Source: Phycisphaerales bacterium
GTDB lineage: Bacteria > Planctomycetota > Phycisphaerae > Phycisphaerales > SM1A02
Assembly (NCBI GenBank): GCA_014238205.1
Contig: JABABM010000002.1
Coordinates: 62,001-126,000 of the forward strand
Length of the DNA: 64,000 bases
Direction: 5' to 3'
Position numbers and translations under genes: made by a program. The notes under the pieces were generated by a model. That model saw nothing but the letters and a program-made list of their open reading frames with translations, was not told where the DNA came from and did not search any database. Shown in pieces: positions 47,323 to 55,106 of this stretch; the stretch's first letter is position 1, and each line of letters begins with the position of its first letter.

Positions 47323-49323
47323 ATGTTCCTGCGCACCGTCCTGATATCAATTCTCTGCCTTTCATCGTGGTCGATGGCAACCCAGAAAGCCCCGATACAA
47401 GCAGGGCCACCCGCACCAGCGAAGGTTCCTGGAGGATTGCGAGACGATGTTAGCTGGCCCTCCAGGTTGGCGATGCGGACGTCAATGATCCGGGGAGCCT
47501 TCCCGATTTCGAGCCAGGTCGTGCTCGTCCCCGATGCGGCGACCTACCTTGATGAACTTGGAAAGTGGACGAAGCACAATCGATGGCCTGTGCTCCTTGA
47601 AGATGACTTCTACGCACCGATGTTCATGAGGGCCTACCAGCCCGAAGTGATCTACCGACGTGAATCGATCGGGGCACTTCCCCCTGATCACGATGAACGC
47701 AAGAGGATGATCGAGGAAATCGTCGCACGAGCCTGGCGCCTCGATGGGTCAGAAGCGACAACGAGTACCAAGGCATTCGATGAACGTGGTTTCATGCCCG
47801 TCGGGGTCGTTCTCTCTTCGCTGGAAGATCCCGCATGGACCGCTGCTGTAACCCTTGCAGCCGCTCATGGGCAGTACATCCGCTGGCTTGACGGCGAATG
47901 GGGTGGGTTGAACGAGATCCTCGACCTGGCAAAGACACGAGCACTCCTCAAGGAAGCGAACAGTCTTGTTGATTCAACAGGCCAGAGCTGGGATGAGATC
48001 GGTGATGCCATCGAACTCGTGACCGTGTGTCGCACACTTCCTGCACGATGTTTCTTCGATGCCGGGGAACTTCCAGAAGGCATGCCTCCACAGATCCTGA
48101 ATGGCCCCCGGGCAATCACGGATTGCATCGGTCGAAACATGGACGGTTCAAGGTGGGGATTTGCCGGGATGATCACCGGGGGGCAGCGGGCCTCGGTCTA
48201 CGCCGCCATGTGCAGTTACTTCCTGTTCCGGACGAATGTCTGGCTCGGAAACACCTACCCGAACGAAGAGCAGTGGGCTGCCTACCGGCTTGATGAAACA
48301 GCGGCACTTGATGACCAGTTCGGGTTCGCCGTACAGAATCATGACATGTTGTCTCTTCCCGAGCTACGAGCCATCAGTGCAACCGGCATTACGAGCGACC
48401 TGGCGATGATGACATCCAAAGGGAATGCTGATTTCTTCGATCTTGGAACAGATCGCGCCTCACCATTCGAAGTCCCCGTTCTCAATACTCCTACAGCTCT
48501 CTACCTGCTGCACAGCTGGTCGCTGAAGACACCTGGGGATCCACTGAGCGTCGGAGGACGATGGATGCGGAATGGAGCGTACGCGGTTGTGGGATCTTCA
48601 CATGAACCACTCCTCAGCGGCTTTGTTCCACCGATCGTCGTGTCAAAACGATTCATTGGCGGAATACCGCTTGGTGCAGCGGTTCGATACTGGCCCGGTG
48701 AAGGGGCGTTGTCCATCCCCTGGCGCATCAACGTGCTTGGCGACCCGTTCATGCGGTGTGTTCGCCCTGGCGAGATGATTAGGCAGACCGCCCTGACAGG
48801 AGACGGTGCCGGCATGACGGATATTGCTGAAGCCGCTGTCAGTGCTGCAGAACGTGCCCTTGAATCAACTGATGACGAACGCTATGCCGAAGCCATCAGG
48901 CTCCAGGTCCTGCTCGGCGCAGACCTGGTAGCTGTTGATCTCTGGAACAGGGCCGCTGGAGCTGGAGCCGATGGGCCCTCCTCGGCGAAAGCCGCCATTG
49001 GCTCGCTCTTCCGGGAAGGCAAGGCCATGGGATTTGCGGGTGCGTTTGAACGGCTTGAACACAAGACTTCGATGGACCGTGACATGCTCTGGTCGCTTCT
49101 TGGCAACACTCTTTCCCAACCCGGAGATCCTGTGTTCGTTGATCTACTGGACGACAATGTCCGGACCCGGTTCCCTTCTGGAGACATGCAGCGGCTTGCC
49201 CCGGCACTTCAACGAGTTCATGGCAGTGCATATGTGCGACAGCGAATTAATGAACTCGGGGCAGGCGCATCAAACCAGCGGGAACAGAAGGCCCTCGATG
49301 AACTTGGTTCCAGGTACCGTTGA
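47323..49323 (+). CDS. Large exported protein, gingipain/TIGR03790-like at best
   Basis: A 666-residue protein with a signal peptide (about 1-19). The region near residues 405-480 contains R-W-M-R-N-G-A-Y-A-V-V-G-S-S-H-E-P and R-Y-W-P-G-E-G...G-D-P-F-M-R-C, an arrangement I associate with caspase-fold gingipain/TIGR03790-type proteins of planctomycetes. The remaining parts (an N-terminal 350 residues and a helical C-terminal 150) are not recognised, and the catalytic Cys/His pair was not found with confidence. The function is open. It is divergent from the MBL-fold gene and lies ahead of the two-partner secretion pair. Confidence 0.6.
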   Translation: MFLRTVLISILCLSSWSMATQKAPIQAGPPAPAKVPGGLRDDVSWPSRLAMRTSMIRGAFPISSQVVLVPDAATYLDELGKWTKHNRWPVLLEDDFYAPMFMRAYQPEVIYRRESIGALPPDHDERKRMIEEIVARAWRLDGSEATTSTKAFDERGFMPVGVVLSSLEDPAWTAAVTLAAAHGQYIRWLDGEWGGLNEILDLAKTRALLKEANSLVDSTGQSWDEIGDAIELVTVCRTLPARCFFDAGELPEGMPPQILNGPRAITDCIGRNMDGSRWGFAGMITGGQRASVYAAMCSYFLFRTNVWLGNTYPNEEQWAAYRLDETAALDDQFGFAVQNHDMLSLPELRAISATGITSDLAMMTSKGNADFFDLGTDRASPFEVPVLNTPTALYLLHSWSLKTPGDPLSVGGRWMRNGAYAVVGSSHEPLLSGFVPPIVVSKRFIGGIPLGAAVRYWPGEGALSIPWRINVLGDPFMRCVRPGEMIRQTALTGDGAGMTDIAEAAVSAAERALESTDDERYAEAIRLQVLLGADLVAVDLWNRAAGAGADGPSSAKAAIGSLFREGKAMGFAGAFERLEHKTSMDRDMLWSLLGNTLSQPGDPVFVDLLDDNVRTRFPSGDMQRLAPALQRVHGSAYVRQRINELGAGASNQREQKALDELGSRYR

Positions 49324-49329
49324 GGTCGA

Positions 49330-49611
49330 TCAGTCGGCCCCGGCAATTGCCAGGTATTCAACCGGTTCAGCGGATGCGAACAGGTGCCATGCCCAGATCG
49401 ACTGGCCAAGACCATCACCTGCACTGACGCACAGCGGGTTCATCGACTGTTCAACAACCATGGGCGTACATGAGCCCTCGTCTTCCATGACGGAAAGTGA
49501 CACGAGTACGGGTTGATGTTCATGCATGACCGTTGCAGTCGTTGCCGTACAACCTTGTACGACTCCAAGTGCTGAACATGCCAGGATTGCCTTGATCGTT
49601 CGTGTGTTCAT
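49330..49611 (-). CDS. Small lipoprotein, unknown
   Basis: A 93-residue lipoprotein with lipobox V-Q-G-C21. The mature part is about 72 residues, with Cys at two positions (C-T-P and C-V-S) that could form a disulphide, and a W-A-W-H motif near the end. It lies just after the large exported protein, on the other strand. It starts with ATG 49611, which would overlap by four bases with a further small frame upstream. Function unknown. Confidence 0.6.
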   Translation of the reverse strand: MNTRTIKAILACSALGVVQGCTATTATVMHEHQPVLVSLSVMEDEGSCTPMVVEQSMNPLCVSAGDGLGQSIWAWHLFASAEPVEYLAIAGAD

Positions 49612-49922
49612 TCCTGCCCCTCGGATGTGGAAACCGGGCTTGAAACGGCTCGATTTCCCAGGTCTACCAAGTCGTCGGCAGGTTCCAGGGGCTCCTGAAG
49701 CGGGAGGTGGAAATAGACCCGGAATCGGTCTCCAGCATGTCCTGACCGATAATCAACCCCCGCTGGATGGTCTTGAATTGGCAATTCAAAGCGATCAGGA
49801 CGATCACAGCGATTGAGCGTGTCGATGTAGTCTGTAGGGACTGAAGAGTATTTCTCCTGGGAACGCGACCATGGAATTCGTGAAATGTATGTATGCAAGC
49901 ATTGCCTGCGTGGTGGTCGCAT
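49608..49922 (-). CDS. Possible small protein upstream of the lipoprotein
   Basis: A reading frame of at most 104 codons that ends four bases inside the lipoprotein gene (ATGA). Its second half (D-R-F-R-V-Y-F-H-L-P, then an acidic stretch) looks like a real protein. Its only ATG start (49922) lies 52 bases inside the TpsB gene on the other strand, and no good start is found closer. It may be real with an unusual start, or a chance frame. Confidence 0.3.
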   Translation of the reverse strand: MRPPRRQCLHTYISRIPWSRSQEKYSSVPTDYIDTLNRCDRPDRFELPIQDHPAGVDYRSGHAGDRFRVYFHLPLQEPLEPADDLVDLGNRAVSSPVSTSEGQE

Positions 49923-51754
49923 GCGCCTCCCAGTCGATGGCTGTCGACATCACCCCGACCGAGTCCCAGGATGGATACGTCTATGGTGTTTCCGACTTCA
50001 ACTTGAAATGGAATCACGAGCACCCAGATCTGCCCTCGATGGAATCTCTCCTGTCAATGCCGCTTGCATTGACGAAGACGAGTGAAGGGTGGATCGGGCC
50101 CAGGGCTGATCATGTAGTCCTCACGTCGCTCAATGAGATCAATGCCGCCGGCGGAGGAACCTTCTGGTCGTCGGCGCTGGGAACCATTTCGACCAGCCTG
50201 TCTGCAAAGTTGATCCAGGACGGGCTCATGGGCGTCTTCGTTACGGTCGACCAGTCACAAATCAGTGCTTCCGCGGCTTCTCTTGGACAGGATCTTCGGG
50301 AGGGGTGGGATCTTGAACTCGCCTACATCATGACGGTCGGCCAGATTTCCGAGGTCAGGACAGTCGCTGCTGGCGACCGACTGGATTCGGAAGTTGGAAT
50401 CAACAACCCCATCCACCAGCAGATCATCAAGGATTCACCGCTACAAGGGAACTCTGATGGATCGCCGGGAGATCTTCTTTGGCGCAAACAACTTGAGGAG
50501 TATTTCCTGTACCTGAGTCGACATCCCGGCCGTACGGTTGAGGCGTCCGTTGCAGCTTCCACACAACCAGGCGGGGTATCACTGGACTTTCTGGTACGGG
50601 AGAACAAGCCGCTTACTCTCTTTGTTGAAATGTCGAATACAGGTACATCGCAGGAAGGCTACTTCCGACAGCGATATGGCCTGTTCCACTCGCAACTGAC
50701 GGGAAATGATGACACCCTGTCGTTGACGTACCTCACCTCCGACTTCGATCGATCGAATGCATTCTTTGGAAAGTACGATGCAAGGTTGCCTGGCACGGAT
50801 CGGATGCGATGGAGTGTTGCGGGTGACTGGAGCCAGTTTGTTGCCGATGAGTTTGGCATCCTGACCGATGCATTCGAAGGTAATTCCTGGTCCGTCACGG
50901 GAGATGTGACAGCGAACATTGCACAGAACGGATCATTCTTCCTCGATGTCGTTGCGGGACTTCGATACCAGCACCTCTTCGTTCGGAACAACTTGTTCCA
51001 AATCGAAAGCAGTGTCGAATGCCTTCTGCCCATCATCATGCTTGAAGCGGACCATCTCGGGGATTGGTCGAACTTCACGGGCACCGTGGGACTCGAGTTC
51101 AACACCCTGGGAAACAGCGAGGAAGACCTGGTGCTGATGGGACGGTTCGATCCATCGGAGAACTGGGCAAGGATGAACTGGAGCCTTACGAACTGGGTGT
51201 TTCTCGAGCCCCTCCTGAACCCGGTCGCATGGGCCGATCCATCCACTCCGGAGTCATCCACGCTTGCCCACGAGGTGATGTTGTCATTCAGTGGCCAGTA
51301 TGCCTTCAACAGTCGCCTGATTCCCCAGTTCCAGGGTGTCCTTGGTGGCATGTACTCGGTTCGAGGCTATCCCCAGTCTGTTGCGGCTGGTGATTCGACG
51401 CTGCTGGGGAAGGCGGAGTACCGGTTTCACGTACCTAGGGTCTTCGCGATCGATCCAGTTCCCATTGAATTTCTCGGGGATCCCTTCCGTGCATCCCCCC
51501 AGCATGTCTATGGACGACCCGATTGGGATCTGATGCTCTGCGCATTCATCGATGCCGGCACGACGATGCAGTCACACCGTGCATTTTTCGAAACGGATAA
51601 CACGCTGATCGGAACGGGTGTTGGTTTCGAAATCCTGTACAAGCAGAACATCCGCTTCAGGCTCGACTGGGGCTTCCCTCTGAAGGATCTTCCTGCAGCG
51701 GGTGTCAAAGTCGGAGACGAGCGTGTCTATGTCTCCGGTTCGATCGTGTTCTAG
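49871..51754 (+). CDS. TpsB-type outer membrane transporter (ShlB/FhaC family)
   Basis: A 627-residue outer-membrane protein of the Omp85/TpsB superfamily. A signal peptide (residues about 1-24, A-S-Q-S-M-A) is followed by an N-terminal part of about 200 residues in the POTRA position. A beta-barrel of about 400 residues has aromatic strand ends and ends in Phe. The V-R-G-Y motif that sits inside the barrel pore of all family members is near residue 496 (G-M-Y-S-V-R-G-Y). It should secrete the TpsA-like protein encoded next. TpsB proteins are usually about 560 residues; the extra length is in the N-terminal half. ATG 49886 is an alternative start. Confidence 0.88.
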   Translation: MEFVKCMYASIACVVVACASQSMAVDITPTESQDGYVYGVSDFNLKWNHEHPDLPSMESLLSMPLALTKTSEGWIGPRADHVVLTSLNEINAAGGGTFWSSALGTISTSLSAKLIQDGLMGVFVTVDQSQISASAASLGQDLREGWDLELAYIMTVGQISEVRTVAAGDRLDSEVGINNPIHQQIIKDSPLQGNSDGSPGDLLWRKQLEEYFLYLSRHPGRTVEASVAASTQPGGVSLDFLVRENKPLTLFVEMSNTGTSQEGYFRQRYGLFHSQLTGNDDTLSLTYLTSDFDRSNAFFGKYDARLPGTDRMRWSVAGDWSQFVADEFGILTDAFEGNSWSVTGDVTANIAQNGSFFLDVVAGLRYQHLFVRNNLFQIESSVECLLPIIMLEADHLGDWSNFTGTVGLEFNTLGNSEEDLVLMGRFDPSENWARMNWSLTNWVFLEPLLNPVAWADPSTPESSTLAHEVMLSFSGQYAFNSRLIPQFQGVLGGMYSVRGYPQSVAAGDSTLLGKAEYRFHVPRVFAIDPVPIEFLGDPFRASPQHVYGRPDWDLMLCAFIDAGTTMQSHRAFFETDNTLIGTGVGFEILYKQNIRFRLDWGFPLKDLPAAGVKVGDERVYVSGSIVF

Positions 51755-51874
51755 ATCGACCCCGAAATACAAACATCTCCCGGATGTAAAACTACATTGC
51801 GACACGCTCGAACCCCTTCCAGGTTCCGTCTGGAGGGGTCGCGAGGGATATCGGACCCTAAATACGTCAACTCC

Positions 51875-51905
51875 TTGAGACCACACTTAAAAGGCGTGGT
51901 ATGTT
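51875..51905 (+). promoter_or_regulatory. Candidate promoter of the TpsA-like gene
   Basis: A -35-like TTGAGA (51875-51880) and a -10-like TATGTT (51900-51905) are separated by 19 bases, in the about 220-base gap between the TpsB and TpsA genes. The same gap contains the imperfect hairpin GCGAC...ACCCCTTCC / GGAGGGGTCGC (51799-51844), which could attenuate read-through from the TpsB gene and thereby set the ratio of the two. Confidence 0.4.
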
Positions 51906-51974
51906 TTCCATGGTCCTCTTCAGGGGATTCCGGGTGCAGTGGGACTCAATGCCCGCTTTCAGGGACATGAACCA

Positions 51975-54900
51975 GTGAAAGAGATGCTTACGTCCATCAT
52001 GAATATGGTGTGCATTCCGCTACGCCGCTGGAGCAGGCTGCTTGCAGCAGTCGCCGCAGGGTGGCTTGGGACGGTTGCATTCGCCATACCCGACGGTGGA
52101 ACGTGGGAATATGGAAATGGAACCATCACCTACAGCGGTGGTGGAACAACCCTCACGATCAATGCTTCTTCCAACAGCAGCATCATCAACTGGCTTCGCT
52201 TCAATATCGCCAATGGGGAGAGCGTCTTCTTCAACCTCCCCGGCTCCTCGTCGCGAGTACTCAATCGCATCAATGCAGCAAACGGCATCTCCTTCATCAA
52301 TGGAGTGCTTGCATCGAATGGGCAGGTCTACCTGGTGAATCCAGCAGGCATCACCTTCGGGGCCAACTCGATCCTGAATGCAAACCGCATCTACGCAGCG
52401 GCGGGTGACATGAGTTCCGATGATTTCCTTACCGGCATCGACCGCTTCACGAACCTCCAGGGAGAAATCATCAACCAGGGCTCGGTCACAGCGAACGAGG
52501 TCCATTTCGTCGGACATCGTGTCGTGAATGACACGACCGGCGTCGTCCAGGGCGGATTGATCAGCTTCAGCACGGGAAACGAGGTATGGATTCAACGCGT
52601 TGGAGACGGTATCTCCATCCGAATCGATGGACAGGACCTTGGAGATCCGCAGGAAGGGACAGTCAACGCATCACTTGACGGTGCCGGAGGCATCGAGAAT
52701 CACGGCTCCATCATCGCCGATCCCGGAGGCGCGATACATCTCGCGGCCGGTGACCTGCATGGTCTTGCACTGCTGAATACCGGCACGATCCAGGCGTCCG
52801 GAGGAACCATCCAGCTCACAGCTCGAGGCGGAGCGATACACAATGACGTGACAGGCGTCATCGACGCTTCCAACAGCACTGGTGATGGTGGCAACGTCCT
52901 TATCCAGGGGCCCGTCATCGTCAACCGCGGTCTCATTGCCGCAAATACGGATGCTGTCGGCGGCGAAGCCGGAACGATCGACGTCCGGGCGCATACGAAC
53001 GCCATCTTCACGGAGACCAGCAATGTCGAAGCCCGTGGCAACATTGCCGGGAGCGGTGGTGAAATAAACATCGAGGCAACAAATGGAACCGTCTACCTTG
53101 CCGAAGGTGGAACGCTCGATGTCAAGGGCGGCCTCCTTGGTGGAGACGGCGGCTCCGTCTCGATCACCGGAGGCCAGGTTTACCACAGAGCCACGACAAA
53201 GGTCGGGGCAATCAATGGCGCTGACGGCTCACTCTCCGTCACCGTTGACGAAAGCATTGTCACGACCGACGCATCCGTCGGGGACCCGGTGGGAGATCCT
53301 TCCGGCCTGGACCTGACTTCCGCAATCAATGTCACCAGCCAGATCGGAACCAATGTCCTGCACATGTTCGATGGAGATGTCTCGATCGACTCCTCGGAGA
53401 ACGTCTCCGTCATTGACGGGTTTGATCTGAATGGACATGACCTGGACATCAATGCAGGAAGCAACATCAATCTCTTCAACGAAGTCACAGGATTGAATGA
53501 TTTCACGCTTACTGCAGGCAACACGATCGAGTTCGGTGACAGTTTCACGGATATTGCCGGTAACGCCGCATTCACCGCGACCGAGATCAGGATCAACGCT
53601 TCTTCCCCCGTCTCCATCGAGACAGGTGGTTGGCAGACCTGGGATGGCGATGTCGTTCTGCAGGAAACAGACCTTTCCGTAACCGCGGAATCAGCTGAAT
53701 TCACCGGCACGATTGATTCGGACGGTCCAATGCATGCTTCCGAACTGAGCATCGATGTCGATGGTGAACTGCAGATTCTCGGTTCGATCGGTGCAAACGG
53801 GACCCTTGGTGCGATCGACCTGTCAGCAGACCTGATCACGCTCGGTGGAACTGAAATCAACGCCTTCGGTGACATCCTCCTGAATGCGGACGGTCATGCC
53901 GAGTTCGGTGATGTTGCAACCATCGTCGGGCTCGCGGATTCTCTTTCAATCACCTCTTTCCTGGGCGACATCCTGCTCGGGCAGAACGAGGTCTTTACCC
54001 AACTGGGCGATCTCTCCATGGAATCCGCTGGACTGGTCAGGATCGGCGACATCAATACCCTTGGCGATTTCAGCGTAACTGCGCCCGACATCGAGATCAT
54101 GAGTCGTGAAGGCGGTGACATACTCCAGTCTGATGGCACCTATGCATTCTCCCCTGGTGTTGCATGCATCGCCGGTGGCTCCATCTTCTTCTCAAGCACG
54201 CCGACCATACTTGGGTCTCTTGGTGCCGATCCGGTATTTGCTTCGGCCGAGGAATCAAGTTCATTCGTCTCAACCCTCAGTGGTTTCGAGACCATGCAGA
54301 TTGAACCTCTGGACATAAGCGACTTCACCTTCGGGGACGTGGTCCTCAATCTTCATCCCGTTCCAGCAGACGATGGAGGCGGAGATGATCCGGCAAACGG
54401 TAACGATGACTCTTCCCCCGGAGGAACGACACAAGGTGATCTGCCGGGATTGAACATCAGTTCCCTGCTTGCTTCCGCTGAACAGGTCGGTGCGACTGAA
54501 GACGGTCCACTGGTAATCGAGGATCCAGAAGAAGGCGTTCTTGCCGATTCCGAGGGTCTCATCGTCACGGCTACCGACCTTTCAATCGAGGTGGAAGTCC
54601 TTTCGGAGAATCCTGATGATCAACAGGGGTCCCTTACCCGGTCGGATATTCTCGCCAACTATCCTGTGAACAGCGTCAACCCGACCACTGGAAACATCCG
54701 GGTCAAGCAACGACGGTTGAATCGCACCATGCTTCGCAAGAGCCTTGGGAAGTACCAGGAGCTGCTTGCGATGCAGCCAGGTGACGTCGAGGCCAACCTC
54801 GAGAACAACAACACGACTCACATTGCAGATTCAATCAACTCCGCCTGGGCCGAGTATTCCGAGTCCCGGGAGGGCCAGGCCACTGGCGCCGGCTTCGGGG

Positions 54901-55106
54901 ATTGGGTGGAGTCGAATGCAGGGCAGGTGGAAACCCGGCAGTACATCCGCGACCTGCAGGAGGTCTTCAGCGACCTCAACAGGAGCGGGCTCAGCAGTGG
55001 GGAGTTCAACTACGCCCGAAACAGAACGATTCAACGGATCATGGAAAGCAGCACTGGGCCGAGTGGGATGACATCATCGCAACTCAGTGCCACACTGGGA
55101 TCCTGA
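51975..55106 (+). CDS. TpsA-type secreted exoprotein (filamentous haemagglutinin-like)
   Basis: A 1043-residue exported protein. A long signal peptide with a polar n-region and core A-A-V-A-A-G-W-L-G-T-V-A-F-A precedes the TPS secretion domain (residues about 38-270). That domain has F-N-I-A-N-G-E-S-V and V-N-P-A-G-I-T-F-G (the N-P-N-G-I counterpart). The middle (about 270-780) is a Gly/Asp/Asn-rich right-handed beta-helix of irregular repeats. An acidic Gly/Pro linker follows (about 795-830), then an unusual basic, helical C-terminal domain of about 200 residues. No Cys pair is seen at the C-terminus. GTG 51975 is chosen for its AGGGA site nine bases upstream; ATG 51984 and GTG 51939 are alternatives. 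Confidence 0.85.
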   Translation: MKEMLTSIMNMVCIPLRRWSRLLAAVAAGWLGTVAFAIPDGGTWEYGNGTITYSGGGTTLTINASSNSSIINWLRFNIANGESVFFNLPGSSSRVLNRINAANGISFINGVLASNGQVYLVNPAGITFGANSILNANRIYAAAGDMSSDDFLTGIDRFTNLQGEIINQGSVTANEVHFVGHRVVNDTTGVVQGGLISFSTGNEVWIQRVGDGISIRIDGQDLGDPQEGTVNASLDGAGGIENHGSIIADPGGAIHLAAGDLHGLALLNTGTIQASGGTIQLTARGGAIHNDVTGVIDASNSTGDGGNVLIQGPVIVNRGLIAANTDAVGGEAGTIDVRAHTNAIFTETSNVEARGNIAGSGGEINIEATNGTVYLAEGGTLDVKGGLLGGDGGSVSITGGQVYHRATTKVGAINGADGSLSVTVDESIVTTDASVGDPVGDPSGLDLTSAINVTSQIGTNVLHMFDGDVSIDSSENVSVIDGFDLNGHDLDINAGSNINLFNEVTGLNDFTLTAGNTIEFGDSFTDIAGNAAFTATEIRINASSPVSIETGGWQTWDGDVVLQETDLSVTAESAEFTGTIDSDGPMHASELSIDVDGELQILGSIGANGTLGAIDLSADLITLGGTEINAFGDILLNADGHAEFGDVATIVGLADSLSITSFLGDILLGQNEVFTQLGDLSMESAGLVRIGDINTLGDFSVTAPDIEIMSREGGDILQSDGTYAFSPGVACIAGGSIFFSSTPTILGSLGADPVFASAEESSSFVSTLSGFETMQIEPLDISDFTFGDVVLNLHPVPADDGGGDDPANGNDDSSPGGTTQGDLPGLNISSLLASAEQVGATEDGPLVIEDPEEGVLADSEGLIVTATDLSIEVEVLSENPDDQQGSLTRSDILANYPVNSVNPTTGNIRVKQRRLNRTMLRKSLGKYQELLAMQPGDVEANLENNNTTHIADSINSAWAEYSESREGQATGAGFGDWVESNAGQVETRQYIRDLQEVFSDLNRSGLSSGEFNYARNRTIQRIMESSTGPSGMTSSQLSATLGS

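Follow-up and report, generated by a model that had tools for sequence, protein, structure and literature searches.

A two-partner secretion pair in a Phycisphaerae planctomycete with a clade-specific helical domain at the C-terminus of the exoprotein

Introduction

The export route is established for the Bordetella system FHA/FhaC: the Sec system exports the exoprotein (TpsA), the POTRA domains of the outer-membrane transporter (TpsB) recognise it, and the chain is threaded through the transporter barrel to fold into a β-helix outside the cell (PMC5422565). A C-terminal portion of the FHA precursor remains unsecreted; the mature C-terminal domain depends on it for folding, and it also controls release (PMC5422565). 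C-terminal retention of the exoprotein is known for HMW1, HxuA and CdrA: the first two appear to be retained by a globular loop at the C-terminus that is locked in the TpsB pore, and the C-terminal tail of CdrA is periplasmic (PMC5422565). In most TpsB proteins, a plug helix (H1) and a linker are predicted, and the helix is dispensable (PMC5422565). Two-partner secretion (TPS) transporters have been given for Proteobacteria and Chlorobi (PMC4827864).

Here we describe a gene pair from a marine bacterium of the order Phycisphaerales, found in a stretch of 64,000 nucleotides that was analysed as a whole and is hereafter called the window. We consider the pair to be a two-partner (type Vb) secretion system with a probability of about 97%. 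Judging from sequence, it would export a single, very large surface protein by way of its own outer-membrane pore. Sequence comparison and structure prediction identified both partners, their order, and the helical domain at the end of the exoprotein together with the distribution of this domain. The findings extend a pathway known mainly from work on Proteobacteria to roughly 30% of the genomes sampled from a planctomycete class. In this under-described group the pair is an ordinary TPS system, and its clade-specific tails mark it as a variant. What is new lies at the C-terminus: the exoproteins end in two families of helical domains, each associated with one transporter clade and neither with a match in the libraries searched. 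A comparison of tails and transporters across clades would make it possible to test what determines whether a TpsA is retained or released.

Results and discussion

Organization of the tpsB-tpsA locus

The two genes are separated by 184 bp and lie in the B-then-A order on the forward strand (Table 1). The initial annotation had proposed a complete two-partner secretion pair in a planctomycete-type genome in this order, and both proposals were borne out, as a ShlB-family TpsB is followed by a TpsA with a TPS domain. The gene order in the window is coaD, a 222-aa gene, a 666-aa gene, a 93-aa lipoprotein-like gene, tpsB, tpsA, yggS, rex and metF, where coaD, yggS, rex and metF are presumed names that we took from reading the sequences. 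The yggS-like gene is convergent with tpsA at a distance of 8 bp, so that no immunity gene follows tpsA. Within the limits of their contigs, five relatives, including G001, retain most of this arrangement; in several others, yggS is found with rex and metF, and the pair is not adjacent. The pair looks like an old locus that has been kept vertically in this part of the family. The gap between tpsB and tpsA folded no better than its shuffles (z -0.67), no sigma-70 promoter pattern was found, and terminator patterns were no more frequent than expected by chance.

Two upstream genes were also observed. The 666-aa gene showed a weak, sub-threshold match to TIGR03790, and its position beside the pair is kept in five relatives. 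The 93-aa lipoprotein-like gene (MNTRTIKAILACSALGVVQGC...) precedes tpsB in divergent orientation, and three relatives carry a counterpart.

Table 1. Positions of the described features; L-numbered entries lie on loci of other genomes.
Feature	Position	Strand	Description
666-aa gene	47323-49323	+	Upstream of tpsB
93-aa lipoprotein-like gene	49330-49611	-	Divergent before tpsB
tpsB	49871..51754	+	Omp85/TpsB superfamily outer-membrane transporter, 627 aa; Pfam ShlB, AlphaFold2 model, FhaC/CdiB fold matches
TpsB periplasmic part, residues ~36-245	49976..50605	+	Read as two POTRA domains (~36-156, ~158-245) from strand/helix order in the model; borders from the model only
TpsB transmembrane barrel, residues ~246-627	50606..51751	+	Sixteen long strands in the model; fits FhaC, CdiB, BamA and TamA barrels
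V-R-G-Y motif, TpsB residues 497-500	51359..51370	+	Loop L6 signature; 24 aligned homologues
tpsA	51939..55106	+	Secreted exoprotein, up to 1055 aa; Pfam TPS, TIGR01901, HMW1 and EtpA matches
TPS (secretion) domain, TpsA residues ~49-303	52083..52847	+	PF05860; local profile 51-303
Acidic β-helical shaft, TpsA residues ~304-820	52848..54398	+	Similarity to solved β-helices up to 410-415 (HMW1, EtpA) and 652 (EtpA 8vba); remainder presumed
Acidic proline/glycine-rich linker, TpsA residues ~821-900	54399..54638	+	Net charge -18, pI 4.05
C-terminal helical domain (type 1), TpsA residues ~901-1055	54639..55103	+	Family of ~25 TpsA ends; AlphaFold2 model; cysteine-free
CARDB-repeat proteins with C-terminal copy of the first TpsB periplasmic domain	L118:843-6839, L119:7429-12972, L120:6827-11992	-	
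Standalone type-2 predicted lipoproteins	L192:4248-4853, L195:3207-3785	-	Lipobox LSGC / LTGC

Structural comparison of TpsB with homologous proteins

The upstream gene of the pair encodes a genuine TpsB. In the Pfam search, it matched ShlB (PF03865) with an E-value of 3.5e-7 and 30.4 bits against a cut-off of 22.7, which places it in the ShlB/FhaC/HecB family. The structure prediction was confident, with a mean pLDDT of 87 and a pTM of 0.79 for the AlphaFold2 model, which was built from 24 homologues. In this model, predicted POTRA domains precede a barrel whose long strands, counted as sixteen, lie between residues 248 and 626; the Pfam search returned no POTRA match. The best solved fold matches were FhaC (4ql0; E 7.7e-24, Z 28.8) and CdiB (6wim; E 3.5e-23, Z 28.4), and BamA and TamA ranked closely behind, as expected within the superfamily. 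The V-R-G-Y motif noted in the initial annotation was confirmed, with R498 and G499 invariant in the 24 aligned homologues. Additionally, the comparison with G001, an independent MAG, revealed purifying selection on both genes of the pair, with a dN/dS of 0.05 for TpsB.

The window's pair shares with FHA/FhaC and CdiA/CdiB the B-then-A arrangement, the TPS domain followed by a β-helix and the TpsB fold over nearly the whole chain, as the alignments of FhaC and CdiB to the model start at residues 24-36 and end at residue 627. The sequence identity of the window's TpsB to solved FhaC and CdiB is about 15%. A further possible difference concerns the N-terminus, where the model, in a low-confidence stretch, contains only a signal-peptide helix (residues 2-17) and a four-residue helix (31-34) ahead of a first strand starting at residue 37. 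As modelled, a plug helix and a 30-residue linker like those of FhaC (PMC5422565) would hardly fit ahead of POTRA1.

The domain that comes first in the periplasmic part of TpsB (profile positions ~31-153) also occurs outside this arrangement. It is repeated at the N-terminus of some TpsB proteins (L088, L093 and L094) and, in three genomes, stands at the C-terminal end of CARDB-repeat proteins of 1,722-1,999 aa.

TPS domain and β-helical shaft of TpsA

The TPS domain of TpsA was recognised by PF05860 (E-value 2.1e-18, 67.6 bits, cut-off 33.5; Pfam) and by TIGR01901 (5.2e-17, 61.5 bits, cut-off 29.1; NCBIfam), and it matched both Haemophilus proteins HMW1 (2odl) and HxuA (4i84). The true start of tpsA may be an in-frame ATG at 51984 or 51999, directly before the signal peptide, as suggested by the sequence and by the relative in G001. 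In the PDB sequence search, TpsA matched the solved β-helices of HMW1 2odl (1e-18, residues 60-415) and EtpA 8cpk (3e-18). Overall, the similarity to solved HMW1 and EtpA spans residues 48-652, which points to a right-handed β-helix up to about residue 652; the helix probably continues further on. The TPS domain and β-helix that the initial annotation had assigned to TpsA thus agree with these matches. The acidic linker that it noted is present but does not stand out, as residues 49-820 are acidic as a whole (net charge -80, pI 4.05).

The C-terminal helical domain

The domain that ends TpsA, here called type 1, was collected by an iterated search from residues 906-1055 from about 25 proteins, in which it lies at or near the end. 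AlphaFold2 predicted a helical fold of ~145 residues, confident from about residue 911 (pLDDT 88, pTM 0.80). The domain had been described as helical and basic; the former holds, whereas its net charge is -1 with a pI of 5.9, and a basic stretch occurs only locally, around residues 921-939. Relatives carry mostly acidic type-1 tails, and their charge varies widely.

The initial annotation had not recognised the domain, and the searches run gave no credible match in Pfam, in NCBIfam or, by sequence, in the PDB. No significant fold match was found either (best Foldseek E-value 0.81), which is not by itself proof of a new fold. Three kinds of candidate were discarded. The spidroin N-terminal domain (best VIA match, Z 4.7, 82 residues, rmsd 4.3) was at the noise level for helical models; the designed helical repeats found in the PDB profile search with the type-1 alignment matched through one 30-residue helix, a matter of composition; and weak type-1 matches (E ~1e-4) to ORFs of about 110-970 aa were treated as chance.

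Unlike FHA and CdiA, the window's TpsA shows neither a prodomain match nor a toxin match, and its helical tail family is absent from the libraries searched. The pair could still be read as a contact-dependent inhibition system with the tail as its toxin, because the transporter and exoprotein classes are the same and CdiB is among the best fold matches of TpsB. We consider this highly improbable: the tail is one family across genera and is not polymorphic as variable toxins are, the Pfam searches of TpsA and of the tail gave no credible toxin-family match, the TpsA translation contains no VENN motif, and the convergent downstream gene is not a small co-directed immunity gene.

The pair also resembles HMW1/HMW1B and HxuA/HxuB, in which a small globular C-terminal domain ends a β-helical exoprotein, as in the window (PMC5422565). 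In contrast to HMW1 and HxuA, residues 900-1055 of the window's TpsA contain zero cysteines, so that a disulfide loop cannot form, and the tail is a predicted helical domain. Membership in the HMW1 type of anchor therefore fails for want of a cysteine pair.

Distribution of TPS pairs and type-1 tails in Phycisphaerae

We surveyed 297 genomes of the class, each at least 80% complete. TPS domains were present in 91 of them and TpsB also in 91, with both in 86. The pair is thus common in the class, contrary to the rarity outside Proteobacteria that had been implied; as to whether it was already described, a literature search with partial coverage found no paper devoted to TPS in Phycisphaerae. 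The co-occurrence in 86/297 genomes supports the export of TpsA by TpsB, as far as sequences can indicate. In a phylum-wide sample, 28 of 294 genomes had a TPS domain, 15 of these outside the class. The window's genome holds a single TPS domain and a single TpsB, and hence this pair is its sole TPS pair. A relative carries a corresponding pair (TpsB 88% and TpsA 84% identical), and the TpsB search revealed the pair in the public MAG Phycisphaerae bacterium isolate SP202, the one named close relative.

The TpsB proteins fall into two groups, which were first split by E-value and later recovered as clades in a tree of the fetched TpsBs (support 0.94 and 0.99). The type-1 tail was found in 55 genomes across the class at E<=1e-8; it occurred in 52 of the 59 genomes with the window's TpsB clade compared with none of the 25 with the second clade, where these counts are of genomes related by descent and the association does not represent a set of independent events. 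In several of the exceptions, TpsA was cut by a contig end; some apparently complete TpsAs of the window's clade had no clear type-1 tail (L165, L091 and L071), and L086 was marginal. Three genomes appeared to have a type-1 tail without a TPS domain, and in these the ORFs were cut at contig starts.

A different tail in the second TpsB clade

To the extent of their layout, the second-clade TpsAs of Phycisphaerae resemble that of the window: they belong to the same class, are part of the same kind of pair and carry a conserved domain at the extreme C-terminus. The domain itself (type 2) is different; it is helix-rich by appearance and has conserved cysteines (GCP...PCxAC), whereas the window's tail is cysteine-free. 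It was found in 21 of the 25 genomes of the second clade but not in any genome of the window's clade. Comparison of the two tails detected no relation, which leaves a shared origin unsupported.

In two genomes, the type-2 domain also stands alone, as a predicted lipoprotein of ~200 aa with a lipobox (LSGC / LTGC); neither a TPS domain nor a TpsB was found in these two genomes. A position behind a lipobox fits an envelope location and in this respect favours a periplasmic anchor, although it is a property of the other tail, which is apparently unrelated to that of the window.

Proposed export and retention of TpsA

By analogy with the TPS family to which the pair belongs, Sec would export TpsA, the POTRA domains of TpsB would recognise its N-terminal TPS domain, and the chain would thread through the barrel to the surface, where it would fold as an acidic β-helical fibre. 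The C-terminal helical domain may fold in the periplasm or at the pore entrance and, being unable to follow, would keep the fibre attached to the cell, like the C-terminal anchor of HMW1 and HxuA minus its cysteines. That the tail is such a periplasmic anchor, holding the fibre on the cell, is a reading to which we give even chances. We favour it because the tail is last in the chain, is compact, is kept despite length variation and follows the transporter clade; presence by clade would also be expected from plain inheritance. The different helical tail that the second clade carries in the corresponding position and the C-terminal retention of HMW1, HxuA and CdrA (PMC5422565) speak for an anchor as well. 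Among TpsAs with a type-1 tail at or near the end, the length of the open frame varies between about 600 and more than 11,000 residues. Surface adhesion by TpsA is plausible, and the most likely surface role would be attachment to particles or cells.

Some observations speak against an anchor. The complete-looking TpsAs of the clade without a clear type-1 tail are one; the main one is the dN/dS between the window and G001, which was 0.04 for the TPS domain, 0.065 for the shaft and 0.22 for the tail, faster than expected of a fixed anchor. Such faster evolution would be compatible with a tip or a prodomain as well. As a tip, the tail would be exported with the rest and would bind a ligand or partner on an adhesin that is either surface-bound or released; surface-exposed binding domains often change in this way between close relatives, and the wide variation in tail charge points in the same direction. 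We nevertheless consider a tip unlikely, since the fold is common to TpsAs of many genera and several families and the tail tracks the transporter clade instead of varying between loci. An FhaB-like periplasmic prodomain, which would govern the folding or timing of export and then be cut off, leaving the mature protein released or held otherwise, has a precedent in the unsecreted C-terminal part of FHA with its control of folding and release (PMC5422565), and the acidic linker before the domain is where a cut could fall. This appears more improbable still, as no protease gene was seen beside the pair and no cleavage site was identified.

Returning to the anchor, we tentatively suggest, with more doubt than belief, that the lineage-specific helical tails, one per TpsB clade and cysteine-free in that of the window, form a new anchor class through which each exoprotein is matched with the TpsB cognate to it.

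Finally, two giant TpsAs were observed, with open frames of 7,829 aa (G036:C59) and 11,087 aa (G210:C12), in both of which the TPS domain and the type-1 tail are present.
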